In this document: piece after piece, positions 42,093-48,583 of the stretch
How positions within the stretch are numbered: position 1 is the first letter of the stretch
Layout: each line of letters begins with the position of its first letter
Source of the DNA: an uncultured Flavobacteriales bacterium
GTDB lineage: Bacteria; Bacteroidota; Bacteroidia; Flavobacteriales_D; Parvicellaceae
Direction of reading: 5' to 3'
DNA length: 64,000 nucleotides
Assembly (NCBI GenBank): GCA_943788755.1
Contig: CALSRM010000002.1
Location: 155,505 to 219,504 of the forward strand
Made by a program: the position numbers and the translations under genes
The notes under the pieces: model-generated
What the model was told of the DNA's origin: nothing
The model's input: only the letters and a program-made list of their open reading frames with translations
The model's database searches: none

Positions 42093-42455
42093 ATGAGTGA
42101 TATTAAGTTTAAAACAGCAGATAATATATACAGTGCAGATACAGATTTTATCGGAAAACTGTATTTCCTTACTACGGAAGAGGGTGGGAGAAGTGAAATA
42201 ACGGATGAAATATATCGGCCACTTTTTAAATTGAAAGATGGTTTGGATTTAACTTCTGCAGATCAAAAATTCATTGGGAAAGATAGGGTTAACCCAGGAG
42301 ATACAATCCAATCTGAAATGCGAATTATATGGAAAGATTCCTATGTTGGAGGTCTTTCTGAAGGTGCTGAATTTGTTTTAAGAGAAGGTTCTCAAGTTGT
42401 TGCAACCGGAGAGATACTAAAGATTTTAAATGAAAAACTAAGAATAAAAGAGTAA
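42093..42455 (+). CDS. Free-standing EF-Tu domain III-like protein
   Basis: A 120-residue protein that looks like the third (beta-barrel) domain of EF-Tu alone. It contains ADTDFIGKLYFLTTEEGGRS near 13-32, a Y.PLFK segment, DRVNPGDTIQSEMRI near 64-78 and F.LREGSQVVATGEILKI near 96-112. All G-domain motifs are absent. The role is unknown; elongation-factor-like barrels can bind tRNA or proteins. I prefer the ATG at 42093 over an upstream TTG at 42084 because the TTG falls inside a -7-like box. Confidence 0.65.
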   Translation: MSDIKFKTADNIYSADTDFIGKLYFLTTEEGGRSEITDEIYRPLFKLKDGLDLTSADQKFIGKDRVNPGDTIQSEMRIIWKDSYVGGLSEGAEFVLREGSQVVATGEILKILNEKLRIKE

Positions 42456-42536: not shown

Positions 42537-43133
42537 TTATCGTGTGTACTCTACTGAAATTAAAATTTCATTTCTTCTACCCACAAGCTGCATAGGCGAA
42601 TCATACCCGAGATAAGTAAATTCCATCTCATGTTTAATGCCCTTCTTTGTAAGCAGGTTTGAAAGTTCTTTGTGTTTACTTTTTAGTTTTTCTGAACTTG
42701 CCCATCCATCAAAAGATAAAACAGCTACAATTTGTTTGGGTCTTATCCCTAAAGTTACATCTGAATTATTGGGCTCAGGCACATTTGAGGGAGTAATTTC
42801 TTCCGGCATAATGAATGACATTTCTACAGATTCATTCATGTCCATAATTACTGGAGAGGTCATTGATATTTGCTGTTGTTTGTCGTTGCCTCCAAAAATA
42901 AATCCTGCAATTCGTCGAAATCCCTTGCTAGAATTGTTTTCATAACTGCTTCCGGTCAGTATTGTTTTTGCTACATACATCTCAGGATATTCTCTAATCT
43001 CGAACTCACTATACTTTTTAAGTATAGTGTAATTTTTATTGACAATATTTTTGGAATAATTTTTTACAACTAATTGTGAAATAGCAAATAAGCAAGAGAG
43101 TAGAATAATTAAAATTAGTAGAATGTTTTTCAT
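42537..43133 (-). CDS. SOUL heme-binding family protein
   Basis: A 198-residue protein with an N-terminal membrane/signal segment (1-20) and a SOUL domain: KYSEFEIREYPEMYVAKT near 42-59, FRRIAGFIFGGND near 73-85, ISMTSPVIMD near 90-99, the conserved SFIMPEEI near 107-114 and LSFDGWAS near 140. SOUL proteins bind heme or related tetrapyrroles in some cases. It is the last gene of a four-gene minus-strand run, 6 nt after the B12-binding MerR regulator. SOUL genes beside photoreceptors of this type suggest membership of a light or oxidative-stress response. Confidence 0.86.
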   Translation of the reverse strand: MKNILLILIILLSCLFAISQLVVKNYSKNIVNKNYTILKKYSEFEIREYPEMYVAKTILTGSSYENNSSKGFRRIAGFIFGGNDKQQQISMTSPVIMDMNESVEMSFIMPEEITPSNVPEPNNSDVTLGIRPKQIVAVLSFDGWASSEKLKSKHKELSNLLTKKGIKHEMEFTYLGYDSPMQLVGRRNEILISVEYTR

Positions 43134-43139
43134 GACGAT

Positions 43140-44021
43140 TTATTTTGAAAATATATTATCAAAATCACTTAGACAGTGGATAGTTGAAACTGATTTTGGA
43201 ATTTGGTCGTAATAAGAAATTGTATTGCATCCACTCAAGCATAATTTCTCAGGAGGAACGGCGCTCAGAATTTTATGTAAAGAATAAGAAAATTGTTTTG
43301 GAGTAGTACTTTGTATCATGGATGTAATTACCATGTCTGGTTCAATCTTATAATAAGATTTTTCAATGTCGGCAAAAGGTACTCTTTGTCCGAGGTAAAA
43401 ACACTCCCAACCTTTGTCGCGAAGCAAGTATTGGTAAAAGAGAAGAGGAAGCTCATGTTCTTCACGTTCGGGTAAACACAACATTACTTTTTTACCATTT
43501 CGAGGTTTGGTTAGACCATTTGATATAGTAATAATAAACTCTCTTAAAGCATTTGAAAATATGTGCTCTTGAGCAATATTTACAGTTCCTAACTGCCATA
43601 GTTCTCCAATTCTTTTTAATACTGGCGTAATTACTTCCACATACAAAATGGTAATGCCTCTTTTATCAAATACATCATTCAATATCAGCTGCATTTTACC
43701 AGTGTTCATTTTCAAAATCGCCTCCATCAGATTTTTAATCTCGATAGGTGTGTCTTTTTGGTTTAATGCAATTAATTCAGAAGCTTTATGGATGATTTCC
43801 GTTTCTGATAAATTCGCGATTTTAGATATTTTGTAACCATTTCCATAGAGCAAGTTAATATTCAATATTTTTTTTAGATCTTCTTCAGAATACTGTCTGA
43901 TATTGGTAGCGGTTCTTAACGGATTCAAAAGGTTATGACGTACTTCCCAAATTCTTATGGTATGCGCTTTTATTCCCGTAAGGTTCTCAAGATCTTTTAT
44001 TAAATAGGTGTTTTTCTGCAC
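43140..44021 (-). CDS. MerR-family regulator with cobalamin-binding photosensor domain (CarH/LitR-like)
   Basis: A 293-residue regulator. MerR DNA-binding domain ~5-75 (LIKDLENLTGIKAHTIRIWEVRHNLL, RQYSEEDLKKI). A helical-bundle B12-binding domain follows with W142 and E152-H153, that is the W-x9-EH signature of CarH/LitR light sensors. A Rossmann B12 domain covers ~175-290, where His189 in LPEREEHELP is the candidate lower axial cobalt ligand. Proteins of this type bind adenosylcobalamin in the dark, repress their operon, and let go on illumination. Placement inside the operon it presumably controls supports autoregulation. Gene neighbours are glutathione peroxidase (19 nt) and SOUL (6 nt). 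Confidence 0.88.
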   Translation of the reverse strand: MQKNTYLIKDLENLTGIKAHTIRIWEVRHNLLNPLRTATNIRQYSEEDLKKILNINLLYGNGYKISKIANLSETEIIHKASELIALNQKDTPIEIKNLMEAILKMNTGKMQLILNDVFDKRGITILYVEVITPVLKRIGELWQLGTVNIAQEHIFSNALREFIITISNGLTKPRNGKKVMLCLPEREEHELPLLFYQYLLRDKGWECFYLGQRVPFADIEKSYYKIEPDMVITSMIQSTTPKQFSYSLHKILSAVPPEKLCLSGCNTISYYDQIPKSVSTIHCLSDFDNIFSK

Positions 44022-44040
44022 TTGTTATCGGTATATAGGT

Positions 44041-44589
44041 TTACAACAAACTAGTAATAGAATCGTCTAAGGGGTTTACTCCTGATTTGAAAACTTGCAT
44101 GAGTTTTCCGTTTTCATCCACTAAATATTTTTGAAAATTCCAACTAACCTCAGAGTCTTGTATGCCGTTTTCACTTTTGTTCGTCAGCCACTTATACAGC
44201 GGATGTTGGTTTGCGCCTTTAACTTGGGATTTTTCACTCATTAAAAAACTGACACCATAATTTTTTGTACAAAATTCTTTTATTTCCGCTGCTGTTCCAG
44301 GCTCTTGGCTTCCAAATTGGTTACATGGAATTCCAATTATTTCGACTTTTTCTCCGTATGTGTCATGGAGCTTCTGCAAATTTTTGTACTGTGAGGTGAA
44401 CCCACATTTGGAAGCTACGTTCACGAAAAGAATTTTCTTTCCTTTGAAATCATTCAGGTCAATGGTTTTTCCTTCTAGCGAAGTTATCGCGATATCGTAA
44501 ATAGAATTAATCATACTGTTGTTTGTTTTATTGTTAAATGAAAATGATGTTAGAATAAACGGGATAAATAAGTAGCTTAGTAATCTCAT
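44041..44589 (-). CDS. Glutathione peroxidase (cysteine type, exported)
   Basis: A 182-residue protein with a hydrophobic N-terminus (probable signal, 1-20) and a thioredoxin-fold GPx domain. Catalytic Cys62 is in NVASKCGFTSQY; the GPx Gln and Trp/Asn sites are in IPCNQFGSQEPG and VSWNFQKYLVDENG. A cysteine, not selenocysteine, is encoded. Such enzymes reduce peroxides, often with thioredoxin. It is second in the CIA30-GPx-MerR/B12-SOUL operon, 34 nt after the CIA30-like gene. This grouping with a photosensor regulator suggests protection from light-generated peroxides. Confidence 0.92.
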   Translation of the reverse strand: MRLLSYLFIPFILTSFSFNNKTNNSMINSIYDIAITSLEGKTIDLNDFKGKKILFVNVASKCGFTSQYKNLQKLHDTYGEKVEIIGIPCNQFGSQEPGTAAEIKEFCTKNYGVSFLMSEKSQVKGANQHPLYKWLTNKSENGIQDSEVSWNFQKYLVDENGKLMQVFKSGVNPLDDSITSLL

Positions 44590-44623
44590 GGTTTTTTATT
44601 TTGGTTAATGTTGTTTTCTGTTT

Positions 44624-45166
44624 TTAGTCAATCCAAATTTTGGAGACAATCAATCGAAATTCTTCATTTATTTTGTTTCCTATCAAAAAACCTATCTGCT
44701 CTATCGATTGATGTTTAAAGTTTGATAAGCTCATCTTTTTTCCTCTGTAGGTTGGGTGAAATTGATCTAGTGTTAATTCTATCGTTTCCCACTCGCCCGA
44801 CGTGCTAAACGATTGCACATAGGAATAGTAATTTTCTAGTTTGTTTTTAATTCTAAATTGATATGTTTTTCCGTCTCCTTTGAGGTTAATTTTTATAATC
44901 TCAGATGTTGTTTCTAACTTTTTGCTAACCGTTTTTCTAGAGGAAGAAAAACCTCCATTATTATTTGTTGAAACGATGCCTTTAAATTCAAAGTTTCCAT
45001 TTTTATTTATTAATGAGGAAGAAGAAGATTCACCTCCCATTACATTGTCATTAATTCCCGTCCAACCATATGTTTTTCTTGATTCTTTATTGTCAAAAAA
45101 ACTTATTTTTTCTTTGTAGCTTGTTTTGAATAAAGCCGAAAGTGTATTGGACAAGCTAGTTTTCAT
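44624..45166 (-). CDS. CIA30-family protein
   Basis: A 180-residue protein with the CIA30 (complex I intermediate-associated protein 30) beta-sandwich: FFDNKESRKTYGWTGINDNVMGGES near 23-47, the FKGIVSTNNNGGFSS segment near 57-71, and W-E-T-I-E-L near 125. CIA30 domains in bacteria often appear next to photolyase or LitR-type regulators, while the mitochondrial namesake assists complex I assembly. It is first in the probable light-response operon. A 6-9-6 inverted repeat lies 31 nt upstream of its start. Function in bacteria is unknown. Confidence 0.82.
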   Translation of the reverse strand: MKTSLSNTLSALFKTSYKEKISFFDNKESRKTYGWTGINDNVMGGESSSSSLINKNGNFEFKGIVSTNNNGGFSSSRKTVSKKLETTSEIIKINLKGDGKTYQFRIKNKLENYYSYVQSFSTSGEWETIELTLDQFHPTYRGKKMSLSNFKHQSIEQIGFLIGNKINEEFRLIVSKIWID

Positions 45167-45196: not shown

Positions 45197-45217
45197 ATAG
45201 TTTTGTAGCATAACTAT
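45197..45217. promoter_or_regulatory. Inverted repeat upstream of the CIA30/MerR-B12 operon
   Basis: ATAGTT-N9-AACTAT: perfect 6-bp arms, 31 nt from the CIA30 start and overlapping a -7-like sequence (TATTTTGC on the minus strand). The position suits a repressor operator for the B12-binding MerR protein. It also overlaps the end of the small gene at 45214-45381. Binding is not demonstrated by sequence alone. Confidence 0.35.
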
Positions 45218-45381
45218 ATCAATTTAGCGTTTGGATATAAGCTTTTCCAATATTTCACTTTATCAATGTTGGAAAGAGTAATTATTGTCTTTTCATTCAG
45301 TTTTAACTTAAACTTAGGTGTCTTAGCTTTTAATTCAGCTAATTTTTTTTCTAGTTGTTTTGCTGTTCTTTTTCGTCCCAT
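45214..45381 (-). CDS. 55-residue basic protein of unknown function
   Basis: A short frame from the ATG at 45381 to the TAG at 45214 encodes a lysine-rich protein. It has MGRKRTAKQLEKKLAELK (helical, basic) followed by a strand-rich part ending YWKSLYPNAKLI. It is upstream of the CIA30 gene on the same strand with a 47-nt gap. The composition and regular pattern suggest a real small nucleic-acid-binding-like protein, but no family is known to me. Its stop codon overlaps the inverted repeat at 45197-45217. Confidence 0.5.
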   Translation of the reverse strand: MGRKRTAKQLEKKLAELKAKTPKFKLKLNEKTIITLSNIDKVKYWKSLYPNAKLI

Positions 45382-45460: not shown

Positions 45461-45500
45461 AATTAAGATAAGGAGAGATTTTTCTCTCCTTATCTTAATT
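45461..45500 (-). terminator. Terminator of the fasciclin gene (17-bp perfect hairpin)
   Basis: A perfect 17-bp inverted repeat (AATTAAGATAAGGAGAG on each arm) with a 6-nt loop begins 4 nt after the fasciclin stop codon. The stem is A/T-rich outside and G/C-rich near the loop. It is the strongest simple hairpin in the window and could act on either strand. Confidence 0.8.
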
Positions 45501-45504
45501 GGTG

Positions 45505-48309
45505 TTATTTAGTAATTTGAATTTTAGTAGTAGATTGAGCATTGCTGTTTGCTATTCTCAGCAAGTACATGCCTGAGCTAAGGTTAGAGATATCAACCAT
45601 ATTTGATATATTCGATATTCTTTCTGCTAAAATCTGTTTTCCATTTAAGTCAGTTATGGTTAAATTAAATAATTCATTACTGTTTAGTGCAATATTCAAC
45701 ACATTTACTGCTGGGTTAGGATATACCAGTAAGTCCAAATTATTTTTTTCTTGGATTGATGTTGTTAGATTTGGTAACAATACTCCATCAATTACATGCA
45801 CAGTTCCATTGCCAGCAAATAAGTCTGGAGTGGTAACATTAGCATCATTAATCATTACCCCAGCAGAAAGATCTACAACTATGTCTTGTCCATTCAGAGT
45901 GGCAACAGGTCCGTTTGTAAGTGCCGAAGAAGGAACATCGCTTCCAACAACATGATACAATAAAATATCTGATAAGTCTGGAGAAGCTAACAAATCCGCT
46001 GCAGAAATATTCAACGCTGCTAAAGCTTCTGTAAACGCTGCATCTGTTGGCGCAAAAACCGTTAATTCAGAAAAAGGATTTGTTAGTGCAGGTAATAATC
46101 GTGCTTCAATTACAGCTGCTACCAGTGTGGTATGGTCTGGACTGTCTATTGCAATATCAGCTACTGTTTCATTAGGCAGCACTACTCCGTCTAAGACATG
46201 CACTGCTCCGTTTCCAGCTTGCACGTTGGGAACTGTTACTTGGGCTTGATTTACAAACACGTCTGCACCGTCGATAGTAACTTTAAGTGTATTGGTAGTG
46301 CTCAAAGGTTCCGCTATCATACCATTCGAAAGACTAGTTGACAGTACCTCCTCTCCTAGAACATGATACAATAAAATATCTGATAAGTCTGGAGAAGCTA
46401 ACAAATCCGCTGCAGAAATATTCAACGCTGCTAAAGCTTCTGTAAACGCTGCATCTGTTGGCGCAAAAACCGTTAATTCAGAAAAAGGATTTGTTAGTGC
46501 AGGTAATAATCGTGCTTCAATTACAGCTGCTACCAGTGTGGTATGGTCTGGACTGTCTATTGCAATATCAGCTACTGTTTCATTAGGCAGCACTACTCCG
46601 TCTAAGACATGCACTGCTCCGTTTCCAGCTTGCACGTTGGGAACTGTTACTTGGGCTTGATTTACAAACACGTCTGCACCGTCGATAGTAACTTTAAGTG
46701 TATTGGTAGTGCTCAAAGGTTCCGCTATCATACCATTCGAAAGACTAGTTGACAGTACCTCCTCTCCTAGAACATGATACAATAAAATATCTGATAAGTC
46801 TGGAGAAGCTAACAAATCCGCTGCAGAAATATTCAACGCTGCTAAAGCTTCTGTAAACGCTGCATCTGTTGGCGCAAAAACCGTTAATTCAGAAAAAGGA
46901 TTTGTTAGTGCAGGTAATAATCGTGCTTCAATTACAGCTGCTACCAGTGTGGTATGGTCTGGACTGTCTATTGCAATATCAGCTACTGTTTCATTAGGCA
47001 GCACTACTCCGTCTAAGACATGCACTGCTCCGTTTCCAGCTTGCACGTTGGGAACTGTTACTTGGGCTTGATTTACAAACACGTCTGCACCGTCGATAGT
47101 AACTTTAAGTGTATTGGTAGTGCTCAAAGGTTCCGCTATCATACCATTCGAAAGACTAGTTGACAGTACCTCCTCTCCTAGAACATGATACAATAAAATA
47201 TCTGATAAGTCTGGAGAAGCTAACAAATCCGCTGCAGAAATATTCAACGCTGCTAAAGCTTCTGTAAACGCTGCATCTGTTGGCGCAAAAACCGTTAATT
47301 CAGAAAAAGGATTTGTTAGTGCAGGTAATAATCGTGCTTCAATTACAGCTGCTACCAGTGTGGTATGGTCTGGACTGTCTATTGCAATATCAGCTACTGT
47401 TTCATTAGGCAGCACTACTCCGTCTAAGACATGCACTGCTCCGTTTCCAGCTTGCACGTTGGGAACTGTTACTTGGGCTTGATTTACAAACACGTCTGCA
47501 CCGTCGATAGTAACTTTAAGTGTATTGGTAGTGCTCAAAGGTTCCGCTATCATACCATTCGAAAGACTAGTTGACAGTACCTCCTCTCCTAGAACATGAT
47601 ACAATAAAATATCTGATAAGTCTGGAGAAGCTAACAAATCCGCTGCAGAAATATTCAACGCTGCTAAAGCTTCTGTAAACGCTGCATCTGTTGGCGCAAA
47701 AACCGTTAATTCAGAAAAAGGATTTGTTAGTGCAGGTAATAATCGTGCTTCAATTACAGCTGCTACCAGTGTAGTATGGTTTGGACTGTCTATTGCAATA
47801 TCAGCTACTGTTTCGCTGTCTAGGAGAACAGAATTGATAGAGTGCACATATCCGTTCGAGCCCGTTAAGTCAATTCCATTTACTTCCGCTTGATTTGCAA
47901 ATACGCTGGTTCCATTAATTGTTAACTTCAATGTATTGTCATCATGAAGAGGTGTTACGATTTGACCATTCGAAACATTGGAGGACGGAACAGAACCTGA
48001 AAGCACATGATATTGCAATATGTTAGACAAATCAGTAAGTGCTAAAACATCGTTAATGTCTGTTAAGCCAAGATCAATAATTAATTGGTCAAATGCTGCG
48101 TTATCTGGGGCGAATACCGTGTATTGGCTTGTGTTCATATCCAATACTGCATCCAACCCTTCTTGATCTAAAGCAGCTGTTAAATACGTGTGATCTGGAC
48201 TTGCCGCTATCACATCATAAACCGTAGTTTGAGCAAATGTGGAACCGCCTGACAAGACTATCGTCGATGCCATTAATAAGTTCTTAATTGAGAATAATTG
48301 TTTTTTCAT
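45505..48309 (-). CDS. Six-domain fasciclin (FAS1) surface protein with T9SS type A sorting domain
   Basis: A 934-residue protein. It has a signal peptide (1-27) and FAS1 domain 1 (28-166, divergent). Four nearly identical 137-residue FAS1 units follow (167-303, 304-440, 441-577, 578-714), then a sixth domain (715-848) whose first half is identical to the others and whose second half differs. A type A T9SS sorting domain (849-934; LVYPNPAVNVLNI, SSGMYLLRI) ends it. FAS1 domains (e.g. LTVFAPTDAAF, ILLYHV, VLDGVVLP) mediate cell adhesion. The whole region is one transcript flanked by its own promoter and terminator. The recent internal duplication is the main oddity. Confidence 0.93.
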   Translation of the reverse strand: MKKQLFSIKNLLMASTIVLSGGSTFAQTTVYDVIAASPDHTYLTAALDQEGLDAVLDMNTSQYTVFAPDNAAFDQLIIDLGLTDINDVLALTDLSNILQYHVLSGSVPSSNVSNGQIVTPLHDDNTLKLTINGTSVFANQAEVNGIDLTGSNGYVHSINSVLLDSETVADIAIDSPNHTTLVAAVIEARLLPALTNPFSELTVFAPTDAAFTEALAALNISAADLLASPDLSDILLYHVLGEEVLSTSLSNGMIAEPLSTTNTLKVTIDGADVFVNQAQVTVPNVQAGNGAVHVLDGVVLPNETVADIAIDSPDHTTLVAAVIEARLLPALTNPFSELTVFAPTDAAFTEALAALNISAADLLASPDLSDILLYHVLGEEVLSTSLSNGMIAEPLSTTNTLKVTIDGADVFVNQAQVTVPNVQAGNGAVHVLDGVVLPNETVADIAIDSPDHTTLVAAVIEARLLPALTNPFSELTVFAPTDAAFTEALAALNISAADLLASPDLSDILLYHVLGEEVLSTSLSNGMIAEPLSTTNTLKVTIDGADVFVNQAQVTVPNVQAGNGAVHVLDGVVLPNETVADIAIDSPDHTTLVAAVIEARLLPALTNPFSELTVFAPTDAAFTEALAALNISAADLLASPDLSDILLYHVLGEEVLSTSLSNGMIAEPLSTTNTLKVTIDGADVFVNQAQVTVPNVQAGNGAVHVLDGVVLPNETVADIAIDSPDHTTLVAAVIEARLLPALTNPFSELTVFAPTDAAFTEALAALNISAADLLASPDLSDILLYHVVGSDVPSSALTNGPVATLNGQDIVVDLSAGVMINDANVTTPDLFAGNGTVHVIDGVLLPNLTTSIQEKNNLDLLVYPNPAVNVLNIALNSNELFNLTITDLNGKQILAERISNISNMVDISNLSSGMYLLRIANSNAQSTTKIQITK
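45949..47811 (-). repeat. 411-bp in-frame tandem repeat within the fasciclin gene (~4.5 copies)
   Basis: A 411-bp (137-codon) unit is repeated with exactly constant spacing: the marker CATGATACAA (or its start) occurs at 45951, 46362, 46773, 47184 and 47595. Copies are virtually identical at the DNA level including synonymous positions; the copy nearest the N-terminus differs by a few bases (for example SPNHTT instead of SPDHTT). This implies very recent expansion or gene conversion, and copy number may vary or be misassembled. Confidence 0.95.
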
Positions 48310-48345
48310 TTTTGTTTTGTTTAATAATTATTAATAAATGTTAAA

Positions 48346-48378
48346 CAAATGTAATTCATAATGTTTAATAAAAACAAA
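48346..48378 (-). promoter_or_regulatory. Promoter of the fasciclin gene
   Basis: On the minus strand, TTTG (48375-48378) is followed after 21 nt by TACATTTG (48346-48353), close to the TTTG-N19-TAnnTTTG consensus. The start codon is 37 nt further. The rest of the gap to the helicase gene, about 48379-48583, is AT-rich; a 61-codon frame there looks spurious. Confidence 0.6.
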
Positions 48379-48583
48379 TAAAAGCTAAACAAAATTTCAA
48401 TTTTTTTTTAAATCACAGTGTTTATGGGGGTTGGCGGAGTTTTTTTTTATCCAGTATTTTTTCAAATGAATATATTTTTATCTATTATTCTATTTTTTTC
48501 TCCGGATCAATCAAGCATTTATCAGAATTTATGCTACTTGACAAAAGCGTGTATTATCTTTAATATTATCCATTTTAAGCTGC

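Follow-up and report, generated by a model that had tools for sequence, protein, structure and literature searches.

Among the described systems closest to the locus analysed here are the CarH proteins (class I LitR), for which the operators on record consist of 11-bp direct repeats in tandem (PMC9304148), and the class II LitR proteins of Pseudomonas (PmlR2/PplR1), whose site is TGTACA-N12-TGTACA (PMC9758184). The second histidine of Thermus thermophilus CarH (TtCarH), H132, is not needed for the light response in CtMerR or SasPcob, which have Arg and Gln at the equivalent position, respectively (PMC11796333). In Rhodobacter, the RpoE-ChrR singlet-oxygen regulon includes a fasciclin gene (RSP_1409), a photolyase gene and folE2, and in R. 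capsulatus an operon of glutathione peroxidase (GPX) and cryptochrome/photolyase adjoins rpoE-chrR (PMC7074977). For Bacteroidota, we found no CarH operator described in the open-access literature searched.

Here we analysed a stretch of 64,000 nucleotides (the window) from the 3.17 Mb genome of a marine-type Flavobacteriales bacterium, in which a first-pass annotation had proposed a four-gene light/oxidative-stress operon under a B12 photosensor. The theme of that proposal stood, through a box shared with photolyase, carotenoid and rhodopsin genes, whereas its control point had been misplaced and one of its genes, CIA30, proved not to be conserved.

Gene content and conservation of the locus

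The four minus-strand genes (CIA30, GPX, MerR-B12 and SOUL) and the gaps of 34, 19 and 6 nt between them were confirmed, and Pfam backs all four names (Table 1). GPX is of the Cys type and is predicted to be exported, as is the SOUL protein, which has a hydrophobic segment at its N-terminus. Judged from gene order, the fasciclin gene (FAS) upstream also belongs to the locus; it is the sole fasciclin gene of the whole genome, and both FAS and the small ORF that follows it (sORF55) had been left out of the count. The order FAS-sORF55-GPX-MerR-B12-SOUL is kept in three same-genus genomes (G001-G003). The annotated gene order is therefore kept for GPX, MerR and SOUL, whose synteny there indicates that the gene set is no chance association, but not for CIA30, which is missing from the operon in these genomes. 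In the window genome CIA30 sits between sORF55 and GPX and shares 50% identity with the CIA30 protein of a carotenoid/photolyase cluster on another contig (C3); on this comparison of genomes it was inserted in this genome alone and is not a conserved operon member.

Table 1. Features of the locus; positions are those of the window
Feature	Position	Strand	Remarks
SOUL-family tetrapyrrole-binding protein	42537..43133	-	Pfam SOUL 1.4e-45; syntenic in G001-G003; final gene of the operon
CarH/LitR-type MerR regulator with B12-binding domains	43140..44021	-	MerR_1 1.1e-13, B12-binding_2 9.4e-10
Glutathione-peroxidase-like thiol peroxidase (GPX)	44041..44589	-	Pfam GSHPx 1.1e-37
CIA30-domain protein	44624..45166	-	Pfam CIA30 3.5e-32; insertion, this genome only
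sORF55, 55-aa ORF, no known family	45214..45381	-	between FAS and operon; 94-96% identity within genus
Perfect hairpin 3' of FAS	45461..45500	-	genus-conserved; possible terminator or partial attenuator
Secreted fasciclin-repeat protein (FAS)	45505..48309	-	conserved neighbour of B12-MerR genes
Candidate operator box 1, TGTTTAA-N16-TTAAACA, exact	48318..48347	-	FAS promoter
Predicted -7 promoter element TACATTTG	48346..48353	-	consensus TAnnTTTG
Candidate operator box 2, one mismatch	48362..48391	-	44 bp from box 1; FAS promoter

FAS-GPX-MerR recurs in G199, a genome of another family, FAS-SOUL-(OMP)-MerR is found at two loci (L081 and L082), and FAS-MerR occurs in the Bacteroidales genera Saccharicrinis, Carboxylicivirga, Labilibaculum, Ancylomarina and Prolixibacter. 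BLAST 'FAS' labels on L215, L217, L253 and L263 were left out of this count because L215 has PKD and sorting-tail domains and no fasciclin domain. GPX, on the other hand, is mostly unlinked to the regulator across genomes; linkage of the two as a general rule was rejected, and the operator evidence described below is thus independent of it. The hairpin downstream of FAS is stable (-27 kcal/mol in a folded stretch of 76 nt, z -9.6), and neither a cobalamin riboswitch nor any other Rfam RNA was found around the locus. Searches of Pfam and NCBIfam gave no match for sORF55, which is more conserved within the genus than the neighbouring genes. Within FAS, a 411-bp repeat occurs about 4.5 times at positions 45949-47814, its copies 99% identical, and the protein measures 934, 796, 659 and 659 aa in the species of the genus, indicating that repeat number varies. 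At the other end of the locus, a genus-conserved gene convergent with SOUL (42093-42455) encodes a stand-alone protein that matches the C-terminal domain of EF-Tu alone (Pfam GTP_EFTU_D3).

The B12-MerR regulator

Both the W142-x9-E152-H153 signature and the candidate axial His189, to which the first-pass annotation had drawn attention, were borne out (numbering of the 293-aa protein, whose GTG start is common to the three genus orthologues). Across an alignment of 65 sequences from Bacteroidota relatives W142, E152, H189 and G139 never vary and H153 hardly does, and G211 and P215 are invariant or nearly so; the W-x9-EH, axial His, GxxW and GxxxP elements of class I CarH/LitR are all present. 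MerR_1 and B12-binding_2 scored above the Pfam cut-off and B12-binding below it, and the top phmmer match was CarH. An AlphaFold2 model (pLDDT 94.6, 65 sequences) found its best fold matches in TtCarH, photocobilins and CtMerR, with Z of 16-18 for the B12 domain, and methionine synthase and methyltransferase corrinoid proteins matched lower (Z about 14). The low-rmsd matches are those of the B12 domain, whereas full-length CarH aligns to the model with a large rmsd because its DNA-binding domain is placed differently. Together, Pfam and the model show the domain order of class I CarH/LitR, a MerR-type HTH and, after it, a helical and a Rossmann B12-binding domain. As the Rossmann half is present (residues 175-293 of the model) and class II LitR has the four-helix half only, a class II identity was rejected.

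The regulator departs from CarH at several points. Q143 occupies the H132 position of TtCarH, which precludes the known bis-His light state at this site. Among Bacteroidota relatives, Gln is the residue seen most often at the position (70/101). The Gly of the GxxH signature element (PMC11796333) is replaced by R186, although we treat this element as not defining because only 47/101 Bacteroidota relatives have Gly there. Against the NCBIfam CarH equivalog NF052513 the protein scores 97 bits, with a cut-off of 400, as expected of a divergent CarH relative and not of a CarH equivalog. The genome encodes a cobalamin adenosyltransferase (PF01923), which makes adenosylcobalamin (AdoCbl). Sequence, modelled fold and ligand residues support a CarH/LitR-type B12-MerR, for which photosensing is predicted. 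In a phylogenetic tree the protein and the orthologues from its genus fall, fully supported, within the regulators of a different family (f8) and not near the C3 paralogue or the regulators found in their own family; the simplest reading of this position, and one that the tree suggests, is that the regulator of the module was acquired horizontally.

A candidate operator and the genes that carry it

Aligning the FAS promoters from four species brought out a spaced palindrome, TGTTTAA-N16-TTAAACA (the box), which is a probable operator on the strength of sequence comparison. At up to one mismatch the window holds two boxes, compared with 0.18 expected, and both stand before FAS. They are the window's only candidate operators, 3.1 kb upstream of CIA30 and with the hairpin in between. 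Box 1 begins with the two bases that end the promoter element TACATTTG, and box 2, which is exact in G001-G003, covers a predicted -33 TTTG at 48375-48378. We rejected the idea that the operon starts with a box of its own, since none with four or fewer mismatches lies directly upstream of sORF55, CIA30 or GPX (the best has five); the region upstream of sORF55 is strongly conserved in the genus alignment and carries no box. Enrichment in the window is limited to the spaced palindrome, the single motif TTTGTTTAA having been rejected as an enriched element with two copies found and 4.8 expected. TnnACA, known as the core of CarH sites, is present in the half-site but arranged as an inverted repeat, not as the tandem direct repeats (nnnnTnnACAn) of canonical CarH operators; canonical 11-bp repeats within the spacer were also rejected, as it has no conserved ACA. 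Open-access literature on CarH together with fasciclin, GPX or SOUL genes, or on TGTTTAAC together with proteorhodopsin, yielded no report of this operator.

Genome-wide there are six exact boxes in 3.17 Mb, and none of a reversed control pattern. One is in the FAS promoter, three are in the carotenoid/photolyase cluster on C3, and the others stand before a DUF2805 gene and a gene for a secreted PKD-domain protein; 4/6 thus fall in the two B12-MerR loci. Photolyase and carotenoid genes, listed as missing in the first-pass annotation, are indeed absent at this locus but present in the genome on C3, beside a second B12-MerR that retains all ligand residues and whose recognition helix (KAHTIRIWE) is nearly the same as that of the window regulator. 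This cluster (L034:751-16044 in G000) also contains TspO-like, SRPBCC, SDR and CIA30 genes.

Across 299 Flavobacteriales genomes we counted 497 box sites and 15 of the control pattern. Boxes occur in 171/200 genomes with a B12-MerR (E<=1e-40) and in 36/99 without (Fisher p 1.5e-17, a figure inflated by relatedness; p 1e-5 in a genus-stratified CMH test), and 29/200 MerR-positive genomes have no exact box. Within genus g56, boxes are present in 12/12 genomes with the regulator (2-11 each) and in 0/3 without. Moreover, 79 B12-MerR loci fetched by protein alone from Bacteroidales, Cytophagales, Chitinophagales and Flavobacteriales (925 kb) hold 52 exact boxes, a further 29 that deviate at one position, and not a single control site at up to one mismatch, which indicates that the box occurs phylum-wide near B12-MerR regulators. 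The fetched loci yielded 153 non-redundant sites. A start codon follows within 150 nt at 140 of them, and one sits well inside a gene. TAnnTTTG is the -7 promoter element of Bacteroidota. Around 74 one-sided boxes it recurs at offsets of -6 (16 boxes), +4 (10) and +36 to +38 (11), and the reversed control gave no such peaks; the FAS promoter of the window shows both main arrangements, one over the -7 edge and the other over the -33 TTTG. A protein bound over these promoter elements would block RNA polymerase, making repression the likely mode of action.

Genes of the kinds found in the window carry boxes of their own in relatives. The box immediately precedes 12 GPX genes from 11 relatives (G007, G015-G019, G023, G024, G223 with two genes, G243 and G249), SOUL genes in nine genomes (G005, G006, G011, G018, G021, G022, G024, G152 and G186) and FAS genes in G010, G025, G037, G038, G152, G186 and G199. 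CIA30 belongs to a box-bearing GPX-SRPBCC-CIA30-photolyase operon in G223 and to the C3 cluster. Rhodopsin genes with a box occur in G008, G011, G036, G186, G223 and G249 (two were identified by Pfam, another three through BLAST hits of 49-68% identity, and that of G036 by sequence resemblance only), and GPX, SOUL, FAS and rhodopsin genes have boxes even where unlinked to the regulator. Photolyase genes likewise have the box directly upstream, and further bearers are carotenoid genes, ECF sigma factors, the B12-MerR regulators themselves and 6-pyruvoyl-tetrahydropterin synthase. These patterns support a single operator-defined set that would join GPX, SOUL, CIA30 and fasciclin to the photolyase, carotenoid and rhodopsin genes of relatives, and rhodopsin pumps may be controlled by light and B12.

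Among the fetched loci, Bac_rhodopsin-family genes have a box 13-78 nt upstream in L234, L241, L279, L300, L307 and L313. Genes for HMG-CoA reductase, fructose-1,6-bisphosphatase and an NMN transporter (L223, L225 and L226) also carry it, suggesting metabolic targets, and TonB-dependent receptor genes share or carry a box in L043, L047, L050 and L315; at three loci they are divergent from the B12-MerR gene, and cobalamin is a conceivable substrate.

Proposed mechanism and comparison with known systems

We consider it likely that the locus is a photo-oxidative defence module around a CarH-type regulator, which would repress the FAS promoter, and with it the downstream genes, in the dark. The AdoCbl-loaded regulator would then bind the two boxes across the -33 and -7 elements and, sitting on both, keep transcription off. 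On illumination the Co-C bond would be broken and the regulator would come off, so that FAS would be made, and sORF55-CIA30-GPX-regulator-SOUL too, by read-through or from a secondary promoter. The cell would thereby gain a protein for its surface or for adhesion, the means to remove peroxide and to bind tetrapyrroles, and extra regulator (feedback), and the same operator may tie the locus to the carotenoid/photolyase cluster with its own B12-MerR. We infer binding, light response, repression, co-transcription and the match of paralogue to box, as well as control of the four genes through the FAS promoter across the conserved hairpin. The light or photo-oxidative reading itself is well supported by the genome comparisons, and the presence of fasciclin, photolyase and folE2 in the Rhodobacter singlet-oxygen regulon fits such a role.

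It is conceivable, though we lean against it, that the GPX-regulator-SOUL operon has a promoter of its own, independent of light and of the box, and that the regulator acts in trans on FAS and other boxes. The conserved hairpin separating FAS from the operon, the conserved box-free stretch upstream of sORF55 and the five mismatches of the best degenerate box before the operon would all suit such an arrangement. However, FAS adjoins GPX in G199, G186 and G152, where boxes stand before FAS only, and the GPX and SOUL genes with their own boxes in many relatives imply that their control by this operator is either ancestral or has arisen repeatedly.

The box might instead be read by another regulator, the second B12-MerR or an unrelated factor, leaving the window regulator to sense cobalamin or redox state and not light. 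In favour of the second B12-MerR are its very similar recognition helix, its full set of ligand residues and the three boxes within its cluster, and Q143 in place of H132 would suit such a role for the window regulator. Yet in g56 it is the clade of window-type proteins that coincides with the boxes (12/12 versus 0/3), so these proteins probably read the box too, and Gln at the H132 position is both the majority state among the Bacteroidota relatives and known from the photoreceptor SasPcob (PMC11796333); we regard this alternative as unlikely. We find it very improbable that the genes form an ordinary peroxide/heme stress operon under a local regulator, unconnected with light, and that the palindrome is incidental: peroxidase and SOUL genes do suit general oxidative stress, but such an operon would account neither for the enrichment of the box, its promoter positioning and its co-occurrence with B12-MerR, nor for its being common to photolyase, carotenoid and rhodopsin genes.

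Beyond the photo-oxidative module, the box near B12-MerR genes across Bacteroidota probably marks genes switched by these sensors, including light-driven pumps in relatives. With reasonable though lesser confidence, we suggest that CarH-type photoreceptors of Bacteroidota share one inverted-repeat, core-promoter operator governing a broad light regulon of rhodopsins, photolyases, pterin synthesis, fasciclin adhesins, GPX and SOUL. The box offers a precise and cheaply testable candidate operator for a widespread class of B12 photoreceptors, and the control of light-responsive genes in marine Flavobacteria, rhodopsin included, becomes accessible to binding and promoter assays. Since the sensor needs adenosylcobalamin, which many marine bacteria must import, the light response would be tied to B12 supply.

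Compared with known systems, RpoE-ChrR differs in being a sigma/anti-sigma pair that senses singlet oxygen, with no B12 photoreceptor. Class II LitR also controls light-induced genes, from two sites that flank the promoter, one over the -35 element and one downstream of the start site, and its site starts with TGT and ends with ACA as the box does; it differs in spacer and half-sites, has no second B12 domain and responds to a LOV partner. CtMerR and SasPcob resemble the window regulator as B12 photoreceptor domains that are light-responsive without the H132 histidine (PMC11796333), although SasPcob is a B12/bilin fusion and no MerR regulator. The best structural match, CarH (Thermus thermophilus, Myxococcus xanthus and Bacillus megaterium), has the MerR DNA-binding domain, the two-part B12 domain and the GxxW, W-x9-EH, axial His and GxxxP elements in common with the window regulator, and its TnnACA core fits the box half-site TAAACA. 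It differs in having H132 where the window regulator has Q143, tandem 11-bp direct repeats in place of a 30-bp inverted repeat, and carotenoid genes as local targets in place of fasciclin, GPX and SOUL. What is novel here is the probable operator and its regulon.
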